This document shows positions 16,280-54,771 of a DNA stretch of 64,000 nt, in pieces. The stretch lies in contig NC_135367.1 of NCBI RefSeq assembly GCF_051622035.1, positions 14,870,501 to 14,934,500 on the forward strand, written 5' to 3'. Under the pieces are notes generated by a model. It made no database searches. It was not told the origin of the DNA and was given only the letters and a program-made list of their open reading frames with translations. How positions within the stretch are numbered: position 1 is the stretch's first letter; each line of letters begins with the position of its first letter. The position numbers were made by a program, and so were the translations under genes. The stretch comes from Arctopsyche grandis (taxonomy: Eukaryota; Arthropoda; Insecta; Trichoptera; Hydropsychidae).

Positions 16280-16969
16280 TTATTTCCTCTTGCGATCCTG
16301 CGAGCATTTAGGACAATACCACTTTCCTTTGGGCTTGGTCGTGAGACCGACGCATGCAAAGTGGAACCATTCTATCGGACAATCGGGATTGTCGCAGCCT
16401 ATCATTTCGCCGTAGGACACCTGGTGACAAAGACAATAAGTGGGCTCGTTCGGGTCGACGGGCATGTCGAGAACGTCCGTAGGAGGAGCGGCAGGAGTCG
16501 GTGGCGGCTGAGGAGGACGACGGCGCCTTCGACGGGGCTCCGACTCGGACGAAGCAGACCGCTTCCGGGGCTCCGGACGCCGGCGACGACGCCTCTCGGG
16601 TTCGGCAGCTGGCGCCCCACCCAAAGCCTTGTCTTGGATTTCGGCTTCGAACCGAGCTAGGTCAGAATCCAGACGTCGTATGTGCTTGTCTACGAGTTCG
16701 TACGTTTGTATAGCCAGTTGAACCTTGTCGTCTCCGTACTCCTTGGCTTTGTTGAACGAAAGTTGGATCGCATTGACTCGTTCTCTGAGCGCTTCCGGTT
16801 CGATGTGAGAGGCTCTGGGCAGAAGGTCGGCAGCCTGCAGGTCGATTTTCCGCATGATGTTGTGCGCTCGATCGTCCAGATCGCGCATCAGCTTGAAGTT
16901 GCGCTGCAGTTCGACGGGCAGATGCTGCAGGCTGTCCAGGTAATGCTCCAGGTAAAGGGCGGACGTCAT
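16280..16969 (-). CDS. Ing5: Inhibitor of growth protein, ING4/ING5 type
   Basis: A 229-residue protein in one uninterrupted exon. Residues 1-110 form the ING N-terminal coiled-coil domain (starts MTSALYLEHYLDSLQHLP). Residues 119-165 are an Arg/Pro/Ser-rich linker with basic clusters fit for nuclear import. Residues 177-224 are a PHD finger with ligands C179, C181, C192, C197, H203, C206, C219 and C222 in the Cys4-His-Cys3 pattern. ING4/5 PHD fingers bind histone H3 trimethylated at Lys4 and recruit HBO1-type acetyltransferase complexes in the nucleus. The length and the N-terminal plus C-terminal layout fit ING4/5 rather than ING1/2 or ING3. The start at 16969 is the first ATG of the domain. 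The lack of introns could mean intron loss or a functional retrocopy. The ING5 versus ING4 choice is not certain. Confidence 0.95.
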   Translation of the reverse strand: MTSALYLEHYLDSLQHLPVELQRNFKLMRDLDDRAHNIMRKIDLQAADLLPRASHIEPEALRERVNAIQLSFNKAKEYGDDKVQLAIQTYELVDKHIRRLDSDLARFEAEIQDKALGGAPAAEPERRRRRRPEPRKRSASSESEPRRRRRRPPQPPPTPAAPPTDVLDMPVDPNEPTYCLCHQVSYGEMIGCDNPDCPIEWFHFACVGLTTKPKGKWYCPKCSQDRKRK

Positions 16970-17266
16970 TTTGCCTGCGGACTGTCACCAGGTACGACAG
17001 CTGTCAGAATCCGAATATGGCGACCATCGGCGATCAACGGACTGCGCGCATTCGACTGTCATTGGCCAACACTCCCGCCAGGCCAGCCAATCCACCCGGC
17101 TCGTAACACTGTTAAATACGACCACTTTCTTTCACGGACACTTTTAAGTCGCCTATTGCCTGATAACAACTTCAAATAATCAATAAAAACTAAATATATA
17201 TTGTATTTAAACACCGCTATCAATTTCGATCTTAATTTTGACAAAATACTACAACTGTTAGATTAA

Positions 17267-18299: not shown

Positions 18300-21200
18300 C
18301 CCATATTATCTATTATCTATTATATGTAGGACATATCCCCTGACGTTGATTGAGCCTACATAAACAAGTAGGCCCAGAGAAATGTTAAATATGCATTGGT
18401 TTGGTAGCAAAGTTTTTGTCATGAAGTTACTTATAATTTATATGGATATTAGGTACATCCATATCAATTACATAATTTCAAAGACATACATATACATATA
18501 TGTTTATATTGAATATTACATACAAATTATTTCAAAGACCGAGTTCTCGCACCACAATAAAATGTATTTTCAAATTTGCTTTAACGTGTAAGTTTTCAGT
18601 GGCCTTAATTTGATTATATACTTCCCTGAATGGGCTTTCCCAAAGTCAATGCCCATTTCGAAGGATATTTCCAGTAAAAACTGGAGGTGAAATTATTGTC
18701 ATAAACAATTTCAGAACTCATAAAAATTGTTCTTCAGAAAACATCTTTTGCCGAGTGCATGAATGATCCTTTTATGTATATAGTTCATTTAAGAATAGGT
18801 AAAAATAAAAATAAAAACATACAAAATAACTGAGTTATTTATTCATATACTGCATATAAACACAAAAATGGTAATGCATAGCTAATAATTACAAATAAAT
18901 ATAATGTCTAATAATATAAAACATTCGTTTTCATGTTTGTAATCAAACTTCTCTGACACACATAATATTATAAGGCTCTATTGCATAACACAACACGATT
19001 AATTTGCAGCACATCAAAAATGCATGTTGATTATGTTCTGTAACAAGTTTAACTGCAAAATAAAGAATCCAGCACATCAGTACAATTACAAGAGTATAGC
19101 GTTTAAATACATATATAGATAAATAAATTGATGACCTTTTGATACATTGAAATCTTAACGATTTTTACTGATAATATTCTGCTTGATTACATATATCGTA
19201 TGAATATAAATAGTATAATAAAAATAAATGCAAAGTAATAATCGATAATGATGAATGGCAGAAATATTTTTTCGTTGCTTGAAATACTATTATTAGTGTA
19301 GTTTTTTTAAAATTTATTTTATTATGCTACCTCAGGCACTCACACACACACACACACACACAGAACATTCAATCTCATAATTTTTAACGTCTCTCATGTT
19401 CAGACTAGGTGGGTAATCGAGAAACAGGTGTATAGATAATTAATGAAAAGCTGATGATCACACTGATAATTTTCAATATCATGAATTTTTCTCAATCAAT
19501 GAAGTGTTATACTTTGAACTTGACAGTAAGAACATTCATCACTTGCGTTACGAGTGTGTTATAATTTTATATGTATATTATATTTGATTTGATTAGACTT
19601 TTAAATACAATATTAGTACATTAAGTGATTTTACTAAACTCAACTTCTTCCACCTTATAACCTCCAAGCGATATAAATAATTTTAACACATTTTATACAT
19701 ATTTTAAATTTCAAAGTACAAAATTCAATAATAAATTCGAAAAAGCAAATTCTCATTTAGATAATGGAACTGCAATAAATTCTCCACTTAAGAGACGAGA
19801 TGATAAACTGGAAGAAGTTGACATGTAAAATAGATGACATGCTTATTATTATTATGTAAAGTTTAATAAAAAATAATCTATCAAAAGAATATCTGATATT
19901 TCAATATATACAACCTGCATACTAACATTACATGTATAAACTGCAAAAACGATTAAATTTAGTTATCGTTCACTAACCGTTTTTCTTTAAATTCCAAAGC
20001 ATAATCAAGGAGTGGAATATTATTACAAACTCTCTCTATATATTATTACATTTAGTATTTGACGTCAATTTATCATAATATTGCATTCTGATCATACAAA
20101 TATAATCTCTAAATATAATGGAACGAATTTAACATGTACATATGTCGAATCAAAAGTGGTATTTTAATTTCAAAATTGATTCTATATTTACATGCACACA
20201 GTATAAATAATAAAAAAATACTAAAAGATACATAGAACATAATCGAAATTCCTTCAATATTGACTCGTGCATCCTTTGAATGTCACACATGTAATATCTC
20301 ATTCCTTAATTGGTAATAATCACAAAACAAGCGCCTGATATCAATACACATACTCCAGCAATTCCATATGACAAAATAAATCATTGGCACTTTCAAAGAA
20401 TATTACACTGATATATGTCACACAAAGGATTGATAATATAAAGAATTGAATGTTGGCTGAATCCTTAGTGATTTCAATTACATAATATACAAGAGGTATT
20501 TAAAAGGAAGGAAAAATGACACTTAATTATACATTATTGGAAGTCTGGCTACGTGTGTAAACATATAAAATTTGCACCATGTTCGTAAAATAATGATATT
20601 TATAAAAACAAGTGTCCAATTATACACATTGACGATTCAGTTTGCAGGTATCTTTTAAATATATTTTATGCATATTATAATTAGTATATATTATCATGAA
20701 CGGTTAATTTTTAAGTATATTCACTAAATTCATCATTGTTATAATATAATGATTACAAACACCTGAGAAAGACTAATTTATAGCGTTTGGGAATGTAAGT
20801 TATTCATACGTATATTAGAAACAAATCGTGGCACATTCAAATGTCGATATACATTTTAAAATTATAAACAATAATAAGATTTAATAAGTCGTACAGTTTT
20901 AAAGAAAAAATGTATTGTCATAATAAAATGTTAATTGTAACTAATATTTTAAAGCAGTAGTGAGAGTAAGAGCATATTGCAAATTCAAATATCCATTCTA
21001 CGATAATGCTTCTGATAGAATTATTAGTTTTAAATTCCAAAACAATATTAATTCAACTTCCAACAGAATATGAAAGAGCATTAGATGTGATGTTTAATGC
21101 TTACAATATGCTCTGTAACTTGGCATCTGTCTAAAGCGATGCTGTAAGCATCGCTAAAAACAATATGATAATGATAAAAAAAATAATAATAACTGCTATT

Positions 21201-21620
21201 ACTATTTTCATATATACAGTTTTTATTAAAGCTTTAACTAAATCTAAAATATTATACTTAAACTATTCACTAAAAACATGAAAAACAATTGAAGTAGTGA
21301 TATAATAAAAATAATCTTCATTCTAATATACATATATGTATAATAATAAAATAGTCTTATACAAATTCTAAATATAATATATGTATATATACACATAACT
21401 AATATTTTATCGTATTTGTGGTTTGGTTTTTATTAATCCAAGTTAAATAATTAAATATTTTTATGTAGGAATATAATTGTAATCTGAACTTTTATGTGAA
21501 TCCAATTTAATACGAGTACGACTTAATTATTTTTAAGAAAATCAATACATATACTTTGGTAATACATTTATATACTTGCGAATAAAGAAAAAAATCGACA
21601 ATACGCCTCACATACAATTA
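18300..21620. other. AT-rich stretch downstream of SCAR; possible long 3' UTR
   Basis: No coding frame, RNA gene or repeat structure was found, apart from a CA dinucleotide run at 19340-19362. The part next to 21620 lies just 3' of the SCAR frame on the minus strand and probably contains its 3' untranslated region and poly(A) site, which I cannot fix from sequence alone. Confidence 0.45.
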
Positions 21621-21630
21621 TCATAATGAT

Positions 21631-23103
21631 TCAAACGAGCGTTTCATACTTTTCAAAAAGATCATCATCGCGTTCGCAATCGGAATTTCCAGCCGAAGTG
21701 GGACGGTTTCTACCCCTGGTGTTACCGGGAAAAGGCGACTTCGGCTGGTTATAAACTTGTTCGTTAAAACGCACTCTCTGACTGGCCACATTACCCCTAT
21801 ACCTGTCTTCGAAAGCGTTGTAATCATAACCAGACCTCTTGAAAACCTCATCATCTGCAGAGCTTTGACTCTTTGACCTAACTTTGGAATGTCCCAAAGT
21901 CTTCGTGTCAGTTTTAACACAGCGGACGCAGTGGGAGCCAGAGTGGTCAGCCGATCCTTTCACATAAGTTTTATGATCAGATTCCAACGAATACGGCGCG
22001 CCAATAGACGTCTGGCGTTTGAAATATTCAGTCTTAACTGAATACTCGGTAACGGTGTGGCCGCGAGTCATTAAATTATTGCGTTTACTCCTACAGTCCA
22101 TAGTAGCATACATTGGTTTTGAGCTAAAGTGTTGTTTATTCAACTGATCTGCCGGAATGACATACTCTGTTTTCATCGGTTTGTTTCTAGAAAGAGTTTC
22201 ACATTTATCATTGAAACGTTTAATAACATTAGATACAGAGTTGTCGTCTTCCTTAGTAGGACCTTCACTCCTCGACATTCTACCTTCTGGTTGTGTTTCC
22301 TTAATCTTTTTTTCAGGTTCATTCACAGGAGGGTTTGACTTGGATTGTCCAGCAAAAGAAGCAGAATAGTTCAACTTTTTGTGTAAATGTGCTTGTAATC
22401 TCAACTTTTCAGTATCATCCTTTAATCTATTTTCATTACTGCTCACAGTATCGTCAAAGACCTTCTCTCCAAATTTATCCAAACGAGGAGGGATATTTTG
22501 AGGTTCATTTGTCGGCAACACCACACTATCAAAACTACGCATCGCTTTTTGCATGCTACGCATGGAAGAGTTGATAGAATTTTGTCGTATAATAACATGA
22601 GTATCTTCCATAGGTTTTGGACTGCATGAACTAGCTACAGCACCTTTAATTTTCTCTGGTGACTGGATTAAAGTTTTAGCTTGTTCTGCAACAAGTTTTT
22701 TCGCAATAGAATCACTCTTATTCTTTTCATCAACGCCAGGATCCATCGATACATTTTCCTTCTTATCAGTATTGCGAGTAATGTCAGGCGCAGCTTGTAC
22801 TCCGCTAATTAAACTCGGATCAATTCTGAAAGTATGCTTTCCGCCGTGACTCTTGGTCGGTTTTACTTGCGTGGAATTCAAATGAGTCAGTTTTATCACC
22901 TCGGATTCTACAGGTGGTGGACGTTCTTGCTTTGAGGCGCTTTGGCGACCAGTCTTTGATGATTCTTTCGGGCTGGTCACATTTGGATTTTTCGTTTCTA
23001 TATTTGGCTCATTGTCGTGCGGTTGTTTTGAATAATTTTGCTTTTCCACTTTAGAGTTGAATTTCGATTGGATTGAATCGTTGATTGAAGGGTGTGGCTG
23101 GTG
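21631..23103 (-). CDS. In-frame 490-codon extension after the SCAR stop (candidate readthrough)
   Basis: Starting with the codon immediately after the SCAR UGA, this frame stays open for 490 codons to a TGA at 21631. Its first ATG is at codon 120, so independent translation would leave 119 open codons unexplained. The stop context is TGA-C, the leakiest stop type. A short hairpin (CGATT/AATCG with a 6-base loop) lies about 25 bases downstream of the stop. The predicted peptide is rich in Ser, Lys, Asn, Thr and Glu, with no transmembrane segment and no family I recognise. It contains RVRF (residues about 937-940 of the joined protein), a PP1-docking pattern, and ends ETLV, a class I PDZ ligand. 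Alternatives are an unseen splice bypassing the stop, or a sequencing error at the stop. Confidence 0.75.
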   Translation of the reverse strand, partial: HQPHPSINDSIQSKFNSKVEKQNYSKQPHDNEPNIETKNPNVTSPKESSKTGRQSASKQERPPPVESEVIKLTHLNSTQVKPTKSHGGKHTFRIDPSLISGVQAAPDITRNTDKKENVSMDPGVDEKNKSDSIAKKLVAEQAKTLIQSPEKIKGAVASSCSPKPMEDTHVIIRQNSINSSMRSMQKAMRSFDSVVLPTNEPQNIPPRLDKFGEKVFDDTVSSNENRLKDDTEKLRLQAHLHKKLNYSASFAGQSKSNPPVNEPEKKIKETQPEGRMSRSEGPTKEDDNSVSNVIKRFNDKCETLSRNKPMKTEYVIPADQLNKQHFSSKPMYATMDCRSKRNNLMTRGHTVTEYSVKTEYFKRQTSIGAPYSLESDHKTYVKGSADHSGSHCVRCVKTDTKTLGHSKVRSKSQSSADDEVFKRSGYDYNAFEDRYRGNVASQRVRFNEQVYNQPKSPFPGNTRGRNRPTSAGNSDCERDDDLFEKYETLV

Positions 23104-25363
23104 TCACGCTGGTGGCGGTTGTGGATCTGCCCAACCGTCTGAATCAGCCTCGGAATCGGAAGCACTATCGGATTCGCTGAATTCTACAGCTACACGACGA
23201 GCGAGAATACTTGCGACATCATGCAAAGCAGCTCCACCAACAGCAGTTCCAGTAGTAGAATCAGCTGTGCGGCTTCCATTCGTTTTTTCAACTTTCCTAA
23301 GCTTAATACCTGTAAAAGTAAACATTTATGATTGGTTTTGGTATTAAAAAATAAAAGAATTAACTAATTAGTGTATATAATTAAAAAAAAATACATACCA
23401 TCTCTTATAGCTTTCAATAAATCATCTCTGGGATCCGGCAACGGTGCAGGAGGAGGTGGGGCAGCTTTCAAAGGTTGCGGTTTGATTAAACCTGGTGAAC
23501 GAACGTCACCGTTAGCCATTGGTGGTGGAGGCGACACTGGTTCAGCAGGCGGAGGTGGAGGAGGTGGCGGTGGGGGCGCTGGCGGTGAAGCCGATGTTGG
23601 TGGAGGTGCTGGAGGAGGCGGTGAAGCTGCCGGGGGCGGTGGTGGTGGTGGCAGCGCATCCCTAGCAGGCGTAGAGCGTCTCGTTGGTGTACCAAGTGCT
23701 GGTGGAGCTGGAGGGGGACCAGCTGGTCTACTCTGACTTCTCCTAGGAGTTCCTCCACCGCTGCTATACAAACTTTCAGATGACAACGGTCCGGTACCGT
23801 ACATCGGTTCTTCGCCTATAAAGAAATCAGTTACATTTAACTCAACAACAAAAATGTATGTAAATTATAAGTTTAAATACTATTCAATAAATTACCATGT
23901 GAATTATGATTAGTCGGTGTTGAGTGATGAGGTTGATAAGGATGATTTAATTCTATTGAATTAGGTCTTGCAGGCACACTATCTCGTCCGTCAACCATCA
24001 TGACACCTTAAAAAATACAATATAATGTTTAATTTAATATTTCGATAATTTTAAAAAATGGACTGGAAATTTATATAATATCATCAACCAATTATTTTTA
24101 GTTTCAACAGAAACACTCAAGTGAAAGTCTTTCGATACACGTTATCACTATAAATAGATAACAAAAAGGTAAATAGGAATTACCAGTCGGTTGATGCATA
24201 TACGTTGGAGGTTCATGTGTATATGGTTCTGGCGGAGGATGCGACGGAGGAATAGCTTGTGGCATAAGATGCTCTCCACGTGTGAGAGCTCGTTGACGTT
24301 GTTTATCACGGGTGCATGGCGGTGCACGCACCTGTCGTTTACGTCGACCTGCATCTGCACCAGCTCCTGCGCTTCCTCGTGGGCGCACCTTAAAATAAAA
24401 TGAACGATCGAATACATTGCATTACTTAACATACACTTTCATCGATTTGAAAAATGATCTATATTTACTTTTTTCCCTCTATCGTGTTGTATCCTTTCGG
24501 TATCTTGAAGCATTTCCTGTCGCCAAAGTTCGAAGAAGTAACCAGGATCCGTATAGAATTTCAAACCATCGCGACCATCGTCTCGGTATTGGTTCAATTT
24601 ATCGAGAGGTGGAGGACGTTCGCAAGTGGCGTACGTTTCCAACATAGCTGTCGGCATGGTGTCTCTCGAAAATATTTGTTGATCGAATTGTGTAGAACTT
24701 TTGAAAGGTTTACGTAATTGAATGTCTTGAATTGTTACTGAAATAAAAATTAAACTACAATTAATACACATCCTAAAGTATAATTAGTAGAATGAAACTC
24801 TACAAGCAGCAACCTACATATATGGGTATTATTTCAACTTTTTTCATACAATATGAAAGTAAACTTATAAAATTTAATATTGTCCAGCTGTTGATTATAT
24901 TATTAAATTATACAAAAGTATATATGAAGTTAGTGTTGTTGAAATACTTGTCGGACTCTTCAAAAACTATGGCAAACATTAATTAGCATCTCACCATCTT
25001 CAGCAGTAGAATCTAAATGTGTCAGTTTCAATGCAAGACGGTCAAGCCTCGCTTGTAAGTGAGACGCTCGTCCGGCAATTCCACCTGCCTCCCGAGCCAA
25101 CTCACCGAAGAGATCGTCGGCATGTCTCGACAGTGAAGAGAGTTGCCTGAAAAATAAAAAATAAAACACTAGTGAAAATTCTATGCAAGTGAACAATTTA
25201 TTTAATACTACAAAATAAAGGTATCGATTCAAGATATTTACCTGACAGTATTGGCTAATGTTCCATTTGTTACAGCTTCTAATTCACTGGGAACAGGTAA
25301 ATGAGCTGGCAGTACACTGCGTGAAACGTGGATGGGCGCAACGGCCCGCTTCGGAAGAGGCAT
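23104..25363 (-). CDS. SCAR: SCAR/WAVE, activator of the Arp2/3 complex
   Basis: Coding exons (minus strand): 25242-25363, 24995-25146, 24469-24737, 24184-24388, 23896-24006, 23399-23815 and 23104-23309. All have GT-AG borders and continuous phase, giving 493 residues. Residues 1 to about 180 are the SCAR homology domain (begins [16 protein letters not shown]; contains [16 protein letters not shown] and [22 protein letters not shown]), which docks with Abi and HSPC300 in the WAVE complex. A basic segment and a long proline-rich region (exon 6, poly-Pro runs) follow. Then come the WH2 actin-binding motif near residues 412-435 ([16 protein letters not shown]), a connector ([15 protein letters not shown]) and a Ser/Asp-rich acidic tail. 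It drives lamellipodial actin branching downstream of Rac. The UGA stop is followed by a long in-frame extension (see the separate entry). Confidence 0.97.
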
Positions 25364-33114: not shown

Positions 33115-33874
33115 GTAATAACATTAGTTAGTATTTATATAACCTTGGTTTTGGATGAATTTTGAGAGATTATCGAATATTGATGTTATATTAAACTCGT
33201 AGACGTAGAAGAGCTACATATATTAGACAAATATAGCTTTTCTCCAGACTGTAGCCTGTTTCGAAATTTGGTTTTCATTATAGTTAAAGCTGAAATCCCT
33301 AACTGGCACGTGAACATATGTTGTTGTAGTGCATTCAGTGCTTGATTAACTAATACTGGCTTTTCGTTTTTTTTATTATTTTAACCAGAATGCACAAGAC
33401 TCAGTGCTTTTGCTAAAACTATAACAAAGTGCCTCATCACTTTGTATTCCAATAAATAGCCTTTCTGTGTTATTAATATTGACAAAATTTAATTCAAGTC
33501 ATTAGCATCAACGTTAAATTGTGTTCGTACACATTATACACCCAACTTGTGGACCTCTCAATTTGTTACAATTTGTCTCAATTGTGTGAAGTAGGCTATT
33601 TATTATCTCAAGAATATTTTGCGCCCCATTAAATATGCCACAATTTTGGATAGCAACCATTGCCTCAATGTAATATTAAGTTTTATTATATTTTTTATTC
33701 AATCAATCACAACCAGTGAGATGGAACCCATGACAACTTTGTAGTATATGCTGCTGGCTAAAAAAATGTGCCATTTATCGCAGATGACCCACTAGCACCA
33801 GGGATTATCGAAGAGTATCACAAAATTTATTTGGCAAGCCTCACCCTTTTAAGGGAAAAAAATCATTTCGGGAT

Positions 33875-50463: not shown

Positions 50464-50901
50464 ATGGAGCGGCGAACGGGCGAGGTGGCGAAAAGCGAGC
50501 GGCGGTCGCCGTTCGGTGCGCGAGTCGGAGGCAACGGGTGTGGGAGCGGGTGCGGGTGCGGGTTCGGGCACGGCTACGGCTACAGCTAGGAGCCGAGCGG
50601 CGGGTGACGTCACGGTCGGCGGCCATTTGCGCGTTCGTGTTCGTGTTCGTGTCGGCGGACTGTCGCGGCCCGATCGTCGGTTGTCGATCGTCGCGGGTCG
50701 GAGTGCTCGAGCGCCGCAGTGGCGGGCGTCCCTCGGAGAGCGGACAGCGGATTGCGGATTGCGGATTGCGGATTGCGGGGAGCGCTGAGCGGTGAGCGGT
50801 GAGCGGTGAGCGGTGAGCGTGGAGCGTGAGGCGTGTGAGCGTCCGAACCGTCGCCGAGCGCTCGCACTCGCACTCGCACTCGCACTCGCACGGCCGCCGA
50901 C
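50464..50901 (+). promoter_or_regulatory. PP2A promoter and 5' UTR, GC-rich with tandem simple repeats
   Basis: A GC- and CpG-rich stretch ending at the PP2A start codon. It contains short tandem arrays: GGTGCG units near 50540-50560, GGATTGC units near 50750-50775, GGTGAGC units near 50788-50817, and GCACTC units near 50862-50890. No TATA box is evident, fitting a broad housekeeping promoter. The transcription start cannot be placed. The foldback element ends only about 460 bases upstream of the start codon. Confidence 0.6.

Positions 50902-54771
<3,870 letters not shown>

Follow-up and report, generated by a model that had tools for sequence, protein, structure and literature searches.

Does the UGA that closes the SCAR gene of the caddisfly Arctopsyche grandis always mark the end of the protein, or do some ribosomes pass it and translate the long open frame that lies directly behind it? 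The original prediction for this locus, made on a 64-kb stretch of the genome (hereafter the window), held that 490 in-frame codons follow the stop and that its readthrough would give a long SCAR isoform of about 984 residues. SCAR/WAVE is a central activator of Arp2/3-driven branched actin, and a conserved tail of 490 codons would double the SCAR protein and add to it a fixed C-terminal ligand. We consider programmed UGA readthrough, giving a SCAR of 984 residues, to be the best explanation of the locus and a likely one, supported by a conserved extension, a late first ATG, the absence of an acceptor-like site and a gene model from the butterfly Leptosia nina.

The SCAR gene and the open frame behind its stop

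Spliced translation of the minus strand assembled seven coding exons (25363–23104; Table 1) into 493 amino acids and a stop, confirming that the UGA at 23106–23104 closes SCAR. The protein belongs to the SCAR/WAVE family, with an N-terminal WAVE homology region (residues 1–178 matching WAVE1 in a PDB search, E 4e-58) and a C-terminal WH2-central-acidic module, in which the WH2 motif (PF02205) occupies residues 414–435 and the acidic end, read from the sequence, carries a tryptophan. SCAR is a single-copy gene, with all seven matches in the 475.7-Mb genome falling within one locus, and the genome search found no second copy of either SCAR or the extension, which lies at one place. The UGA-C stop context that had been claimed is present (GCG UGA CAC) and is the leaky context of the insect readthrough class.

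The frame behind the UGA is open for the predicted 490 codons, up to the TGA at 21633–21631. A first-order Markov model with matched composition was used to generate 5000 sequences, whose open runs from the stop averaged 17 codons and reached at most 138; since none exceeded that length, the run of 490 is not attributable to chance. Codon 120 was likewise confirmed as the first in-frame ATG of the extension. One of three AATAAA motifs lies inside the extension, so that a shorter 3′ end removing the end of the tail is conceivable. No known domain was found in the extension at Pfam cut-offs (HicB and, for the relative P0002 described below, DUF1428 fell below cut-off), the PDB returned no homologue at E 0.1, and the tail is probably disordered.

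Two other open reading frames were noted in the window. The first, of 234 aa on the minus strand (16280–16984), looks to us like a member of the ING family that carries a PHD finger at its C-terminus, and the second, on the plus strand (50839–51315), is apparently a first coding exon, which we take to resemble the beginning of the catalytic subunit of PP2A (mts-like).

Table 1 Features of the SCAR locus and of the candidate readthrough extension, in window coordinates.
Feature	Position	Strand	Basis
SCAR/WAVE coding exons	25363-25242, 25146-24995, 24737-24469, 24388-24184, 24006-23896, 23815-23399, 23309-23104	minus	spliced translation
SCAR stop codon UGA, context GCG UGA CAC CAG (UGA-C)	23104..23106	minus	sequence
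Candidate readthrough extension ORF, 490 codons (23103-21634), then TGA 21633-21631	21631..23103	minus	open frame, five protein relatives, single genome place
Codons 89-101, KHTFRIDPSLISG, conserved block 5′ of the first in-frame ATG	22801..22839	minus	alignment of six sequences; ATG positions
First in-frame ATG of the extension (codon 120)	22744..22746	minus	ATG scan
Codons 290-302, near-invariant VSNVIKRFNDKCE	22198..22236	minus	alignment of six sequences
AATAAA inside the extension	22135-22140	minus	motif scan
Codons 330-355, PMYATMDCRSKRNNLMTRGHTVTEYS, block with the highest conservation	22039..22116	minus	alignment of six sequences
Codons 443-446, RVRF, invariant 6/6	21766..21777	minus	alignment of six sequences
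Codons 485-490, C-terminal KYETLV, invariant 6/6, also ends Leptosia nina SCAR P0009	21634..21651	minus	alignment
AATAAA, candidate poly(A) signal of the long 3′ end, 3′ of the extension stop	21429..21434	minus	motif scan
AATAAA, second candidate poly(A) signal beyond the extension stop	21222-21227	minus	motif scan

Conservation of the extension as protein

A search of 5.8 billion proteins returned five relatives of the extension (P0001–P0005, with 90, 61, 58, 35 and 35% identity), all of them unannotated ORFs from one source labelled 'lgn', and a profile search returned the same five. All six sequences have the C-terminus KYETLV in common, and P0001 aligns with the A. grandis extension without a single gap across 472 residues. 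When the A. grandis codons were evolved neutrally to the same divergence, means of 8.0, 8.7, 13.5 and 13.5 stops were obtained for P0002–P0005, with 0 of 200 runs free of stops in each case, while the relatives themselves have none. For P0001 the neutral expectation is 1.9 stops and 20 of 200 runs were stop-free, so that this relative alone is not decisive; with a mean BLOSUM62 of its substitutions within 1 sd of neutral, it is, taken alone, compatible with neutral drift. Across the full alignments, substitutions show a slight shift of about 0.5 to 2 sd from neutral towards conservative changes. The lack of stops in the relatives partly reflects the way they were selected, because they are called ORFs; stop-free relatives of such lengths and divergences would not be expected by drift.

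Within two close pairs of relatives the early frame is as conserved as the remainder, with identities for codons up to 80 and for the rest of 85% and 84% between P0002 and P0003 (3 gap columns), and of 86% and 83% between P0004 and P0005 (17 gap columns, including the longer start of P0004), which argues that coding starts near the stop. Between A. grandis and P0001, identity is lower in codons up to 80 (84% vs 91% for the rest); codons 19–58 are poorly conserved towards P0002–P0005 (8–22% identity), and codons 1–18 have no close comparison. Scored with a codon table built from SCAR and the remainder of the extension, codons 1–20 gave 0.09 bits per codon in frame, against −0.50 and −0.20 out of frame. 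The frame carries a signature of protein-coding evolution in a protein-level alignment whose relatives were found as open frames. We regard the frame and its conservation as solid and, judged from these comparisons, the extension is protein-coding.

A continuous SCAR in a butterfly gene model

The end of SCAR together with the extension was used as a query among proteins of 541–1722 aa, and 74 of the 75 proteins found were examined. All but one of these insect SCARs (73/74) end no more than 20 aa after the last tryptophan, as does A. grandis SCAR. The exception, Leptosia nina P0009, is a gene model of 1056 aa in which no stop follows the acidic end WADYKPQPA and the protein goes on for about 544 residues, ending in LDKYETLV. 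The chance of a C-terminal KYETLV by composition is about 3e-8, and since the P0009 tail also ends in this motif, a similar tail appears to be joined to SCAR in Leptosia nina, the sole protein from an annotated source with such a tail among the matches. A. grandis SCAR has 19 otherwise rare residues in common with Leptosia and no more than 6 with each of the remaining proteins examined, a pattern that points to a moth, butterfly or caddisfly lineage. Overall identity does not reveal this affinity: across the first 185 SCAR residues Leptosia is identical at 133, and other insects reach up to 76%.

Similarity between the two tails was assessed in several ways. P0009 was not listed up to E 10 in a profile search with the extension alignment of six sequences, and hhalign matched the Leptosia tail with the extension over the last 10 columns only. 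In Smith-Waterman comparisons of the whole 550-aa tail, the score was reached by none of 500 shuffles for A. grandis and P0001, and by 313, 34, 217 and 32 of 500 for P0002–P0005, respectively. With the last 160 residues, C-terminus included, it was reached by 4, 7, 10, 3, 8 and 3 of 500 shuffles (A. grandis, P0001–P0005), and the reversed Leptosia tail gave no signal at the gentler gap costs of this test (309/500). With the final 8 residues omitted, 2 of 150 shuffles attained the score of a gapped profile alignment, and 20 of 300 that of an ungapped alignment. Beyond the C-terminus, homology between the two tails is weak; the argument for homology draws on the C-terminus common to both, on the position behind SCAR and on a partial similarity of motifs.

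P0009 may mean that the stop was lost in Leptosia, or that the gene model bridges it. If the model is correct, Leptosia carries a sense codon in place of the stop or close to it, and SCAR and tail may be fused constitutively there. The stop may be conserved in P0001–P0005, whose ORFs start immediately after its position and of which no fusion was returned among proteins of 541–1722 aa. Among DNA sequences that might derive from the relatives, 115 stretches (viral_contigs) and 51 stretches (genome_contigs) fit a pattern, and none was confirmed.

Other routes to the extension

The extension could also be joined to SCAR by an alternative splice that skips the stop, through a small intron around the UGA or by splicing of exon 6 past exon 7. 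Exon lengths place the end of exon 6 in phase 1, phase-compatible AGs are available (e.g. 23048 and 22865), a GT at the start of exon 7 (23309) scores 1.16, where the real donors of the gene score 0.71–5.03, and codons 1–18 lack a close comparison. The acceptors, however, are poor: across the stretch from 5 nt ahead of the stop to 389 nt behind it, none of 28 AGs scores above −1.17, whereas the six real SCAR acceptors score 2.82 to 11.05 (scores from a hand-written weight matrix, not MaxEnt), and 31% of all minus-strand AGs in the window do as well as the best of the 28. The prediction that no splice acceptor is visible just behind the stop was thus borne out, and by this hand-made matrix the region is without an acceptor that would explain the frame. 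The best GT of exon 7 beyond the exon's own start scores −0.84. Neither a spliced isoform nor a separate annotated gene model for the extension was found in the protein searches, and among the proteins of 541–1722 aa returned the extension is carried by the Leptosia model alone, which retains the acidic tail that skipping of exon 7 would remove. We therefore regard a splice around the stop as unlikely.

Translation of the extension as a separate protein with its own start (from a dicistronic mRNA, by reinitiation, or from an internal promoter or near-cognate start) is more doubtful still. Such a start might be sought at the GTG of codon 19 (context AAAGTGG), and the called ORFs of the relatives open with a printed M near codons 1–23 as aligned, none reaching upstream of the stop position. 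Bacterial-style ORF callers, however, print GTG and TTG starts as M. P0001 starts at the position of the first A. grandis GTG (codon 19), before which there is no ATG, GTG or TTG, and this would be the pattern left by such a caller with a stop just upstream. The A. grandis frame lacks a conserved ATG at its start, and the conserved block of codons 89–101 precedes the first in-frame ATG, so that an ordinary second start is not the explanation. Two out-of-frame ATGs also lie between the stop and codon 89, P0001–P0005 include no gene model from an annotated source, and a single Leptosia nina protein combines SCAR with a tail ending in KYETLV.

The unbroken Leptosia annotation would also suit an error of sequencing or assembly in A. 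grandis, or a nonsense mutation that arose there recently, with a continuous long SCAR as the real protein. This is hardly probable given that no fused protein resembling P0001–P0005 was returned in the 541–1722 aa search, that their ORFs begin right after the stop position and that the other insect SCARs examined, Leptosia apart, end as A. grandis SCAR does. Decoding of the UGA as selenocysteine, which a UGA followed by a long frame might bring to mind, can be practically dismissed, since no SECIS element was matched up to E 5 when 20400–23400 was compared with 4227 Rfam families (the only family matched, a nematode snoRNA, stayed far under its cut-off) and selenoproteins are described as lost in some insect genomes in an excerpt of PMC2500217.

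RNA structure 3′ of the stop was considered as a trigger and rejected. The small stem that had been proposed (CGATT/AATCG) is present, but the 120 nt from the SCAR stop show no more folding propensity than shuffled sequence (z = +0.80); of 200 shuffles, 158 fold as well or better. The 8-mer CAGCAGCA, enriched in dipteran readthrough genes according to an excerpt of PMC5100048, is absent from the SCAR region and has its sole match in the window at 33749.

A model of two SCAR isoforms

Under programmed readthrough, the SCAR mRNA would have two in-frame translation ends. The majority of ribosomes would halt at the leaky UGA-C to give the usual 493-residue SCAR, as the similar ends of other insect SCARs suggest, and a presumed minority, at a presumed rate, would insert an amino acid at the UGA and continue for 490 codons to a SCAR of about 984 residues. 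The invariant RVRF of the tail is similar to the RVxF motif by which proteins dock to protein phosphatase 1 (PP1), and we take the C-terminal ETLV of KYETLV to be of the class I PDZ-ligand form. With its short conserved motifs and PDZ-ligand-like end, the tail would tether a fraction of the WAVE complex to a scaffold. A putative PDZ-type C-terminus and a putative PP1-type RVRF site may thus bring the SCAR minority to scaffolds, and such tethering of the long form would be the simplest use of the tail. A more far-reaching version, which we offer tentatively and think rather doubtful as a whole, is that moth-caddisfly SCAR comprises two translational isoforms whose tail (RVRF, KYETLV) would connect a defined minority of the WAVE complexes with the phosphatase PP1 on one side and with a PDZ polarity scaffold on the other, with termination efficiency tuning the sites of branched actin, the stop having been lost and the long form become constitutive in at least one butterfly.

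Comparison with known systems

Other insect SCAR/WAVE proteins are like that of A. grandis in their WAVE homology region, proline-rich region, WH2 and acidic end, and of the 74 examined Leptosia nina P0009 alone continues beyond that end. NHS/NHSL1/GUK-holder proteins have a WAVE-type domain with a long tail. They are regulators in the same pathway, NHSL1 binding Scar/WAVE (excerpt of PMC8478917), but are encoded by separate genes.

The original prediction knew of no readthrough in SCAR, and none was among the literature matches listed for readthrough or C-terminal extension of SCAR/WAVE; a supplementary gene list may include Drosophila SCAR. The word SCAR is absent from the main texts of PMC5100048, PMC3840789, PMC4999894 and PMC4528330. 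The A. grandis case differs from catalogued readthrough genes in its host, SCAR/WAVE, and in its lineage; no readthrough catalogue for the moth/caddisfly lineage was among the literature matches listed, and the authors of a 2024 paper state, in an excerpt, that they were aware of no documentation of readthrough frequency in the insect order concerned (PMC10917498). The stop that is kept in A. grandis and apparently lost in the Leptosia model offers a natural comparison for how readthrough isoforms arise or turn constitutive.

In excerpts of the literature, insect readthrough genes include headcase and kelch (PMC13170385) and vvl/drifter (PMC8417969), with 353 candidates in Anopheles and 333 in Drosophila (PMC5100048). 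Among these genes UGA with a 3′ C is the favoured stop, the stop is conserved, and RNA structures, predicted in only about 9–10% of cases, are not required (excerpts of PMC5100048). A. grandis SCAR is like them in its UGA-C, in the conserved frame behind the stop, in the lack of a visible splice bypass and in a tail that mixes variable and conserved stretches (excerpts of PMC5100048 and PMC4528330). It is unlike most of them in its 490 codons, which lie near the top of the range in the excerpts, where extension lengths are given as 3–555 with a median of 19 (PMC4999894) and as 4 to over 1000, mostly 8–300 (PMC4528330). The A. grandis SCAR case fits the known insect readthrough class, for which it is unusually long.
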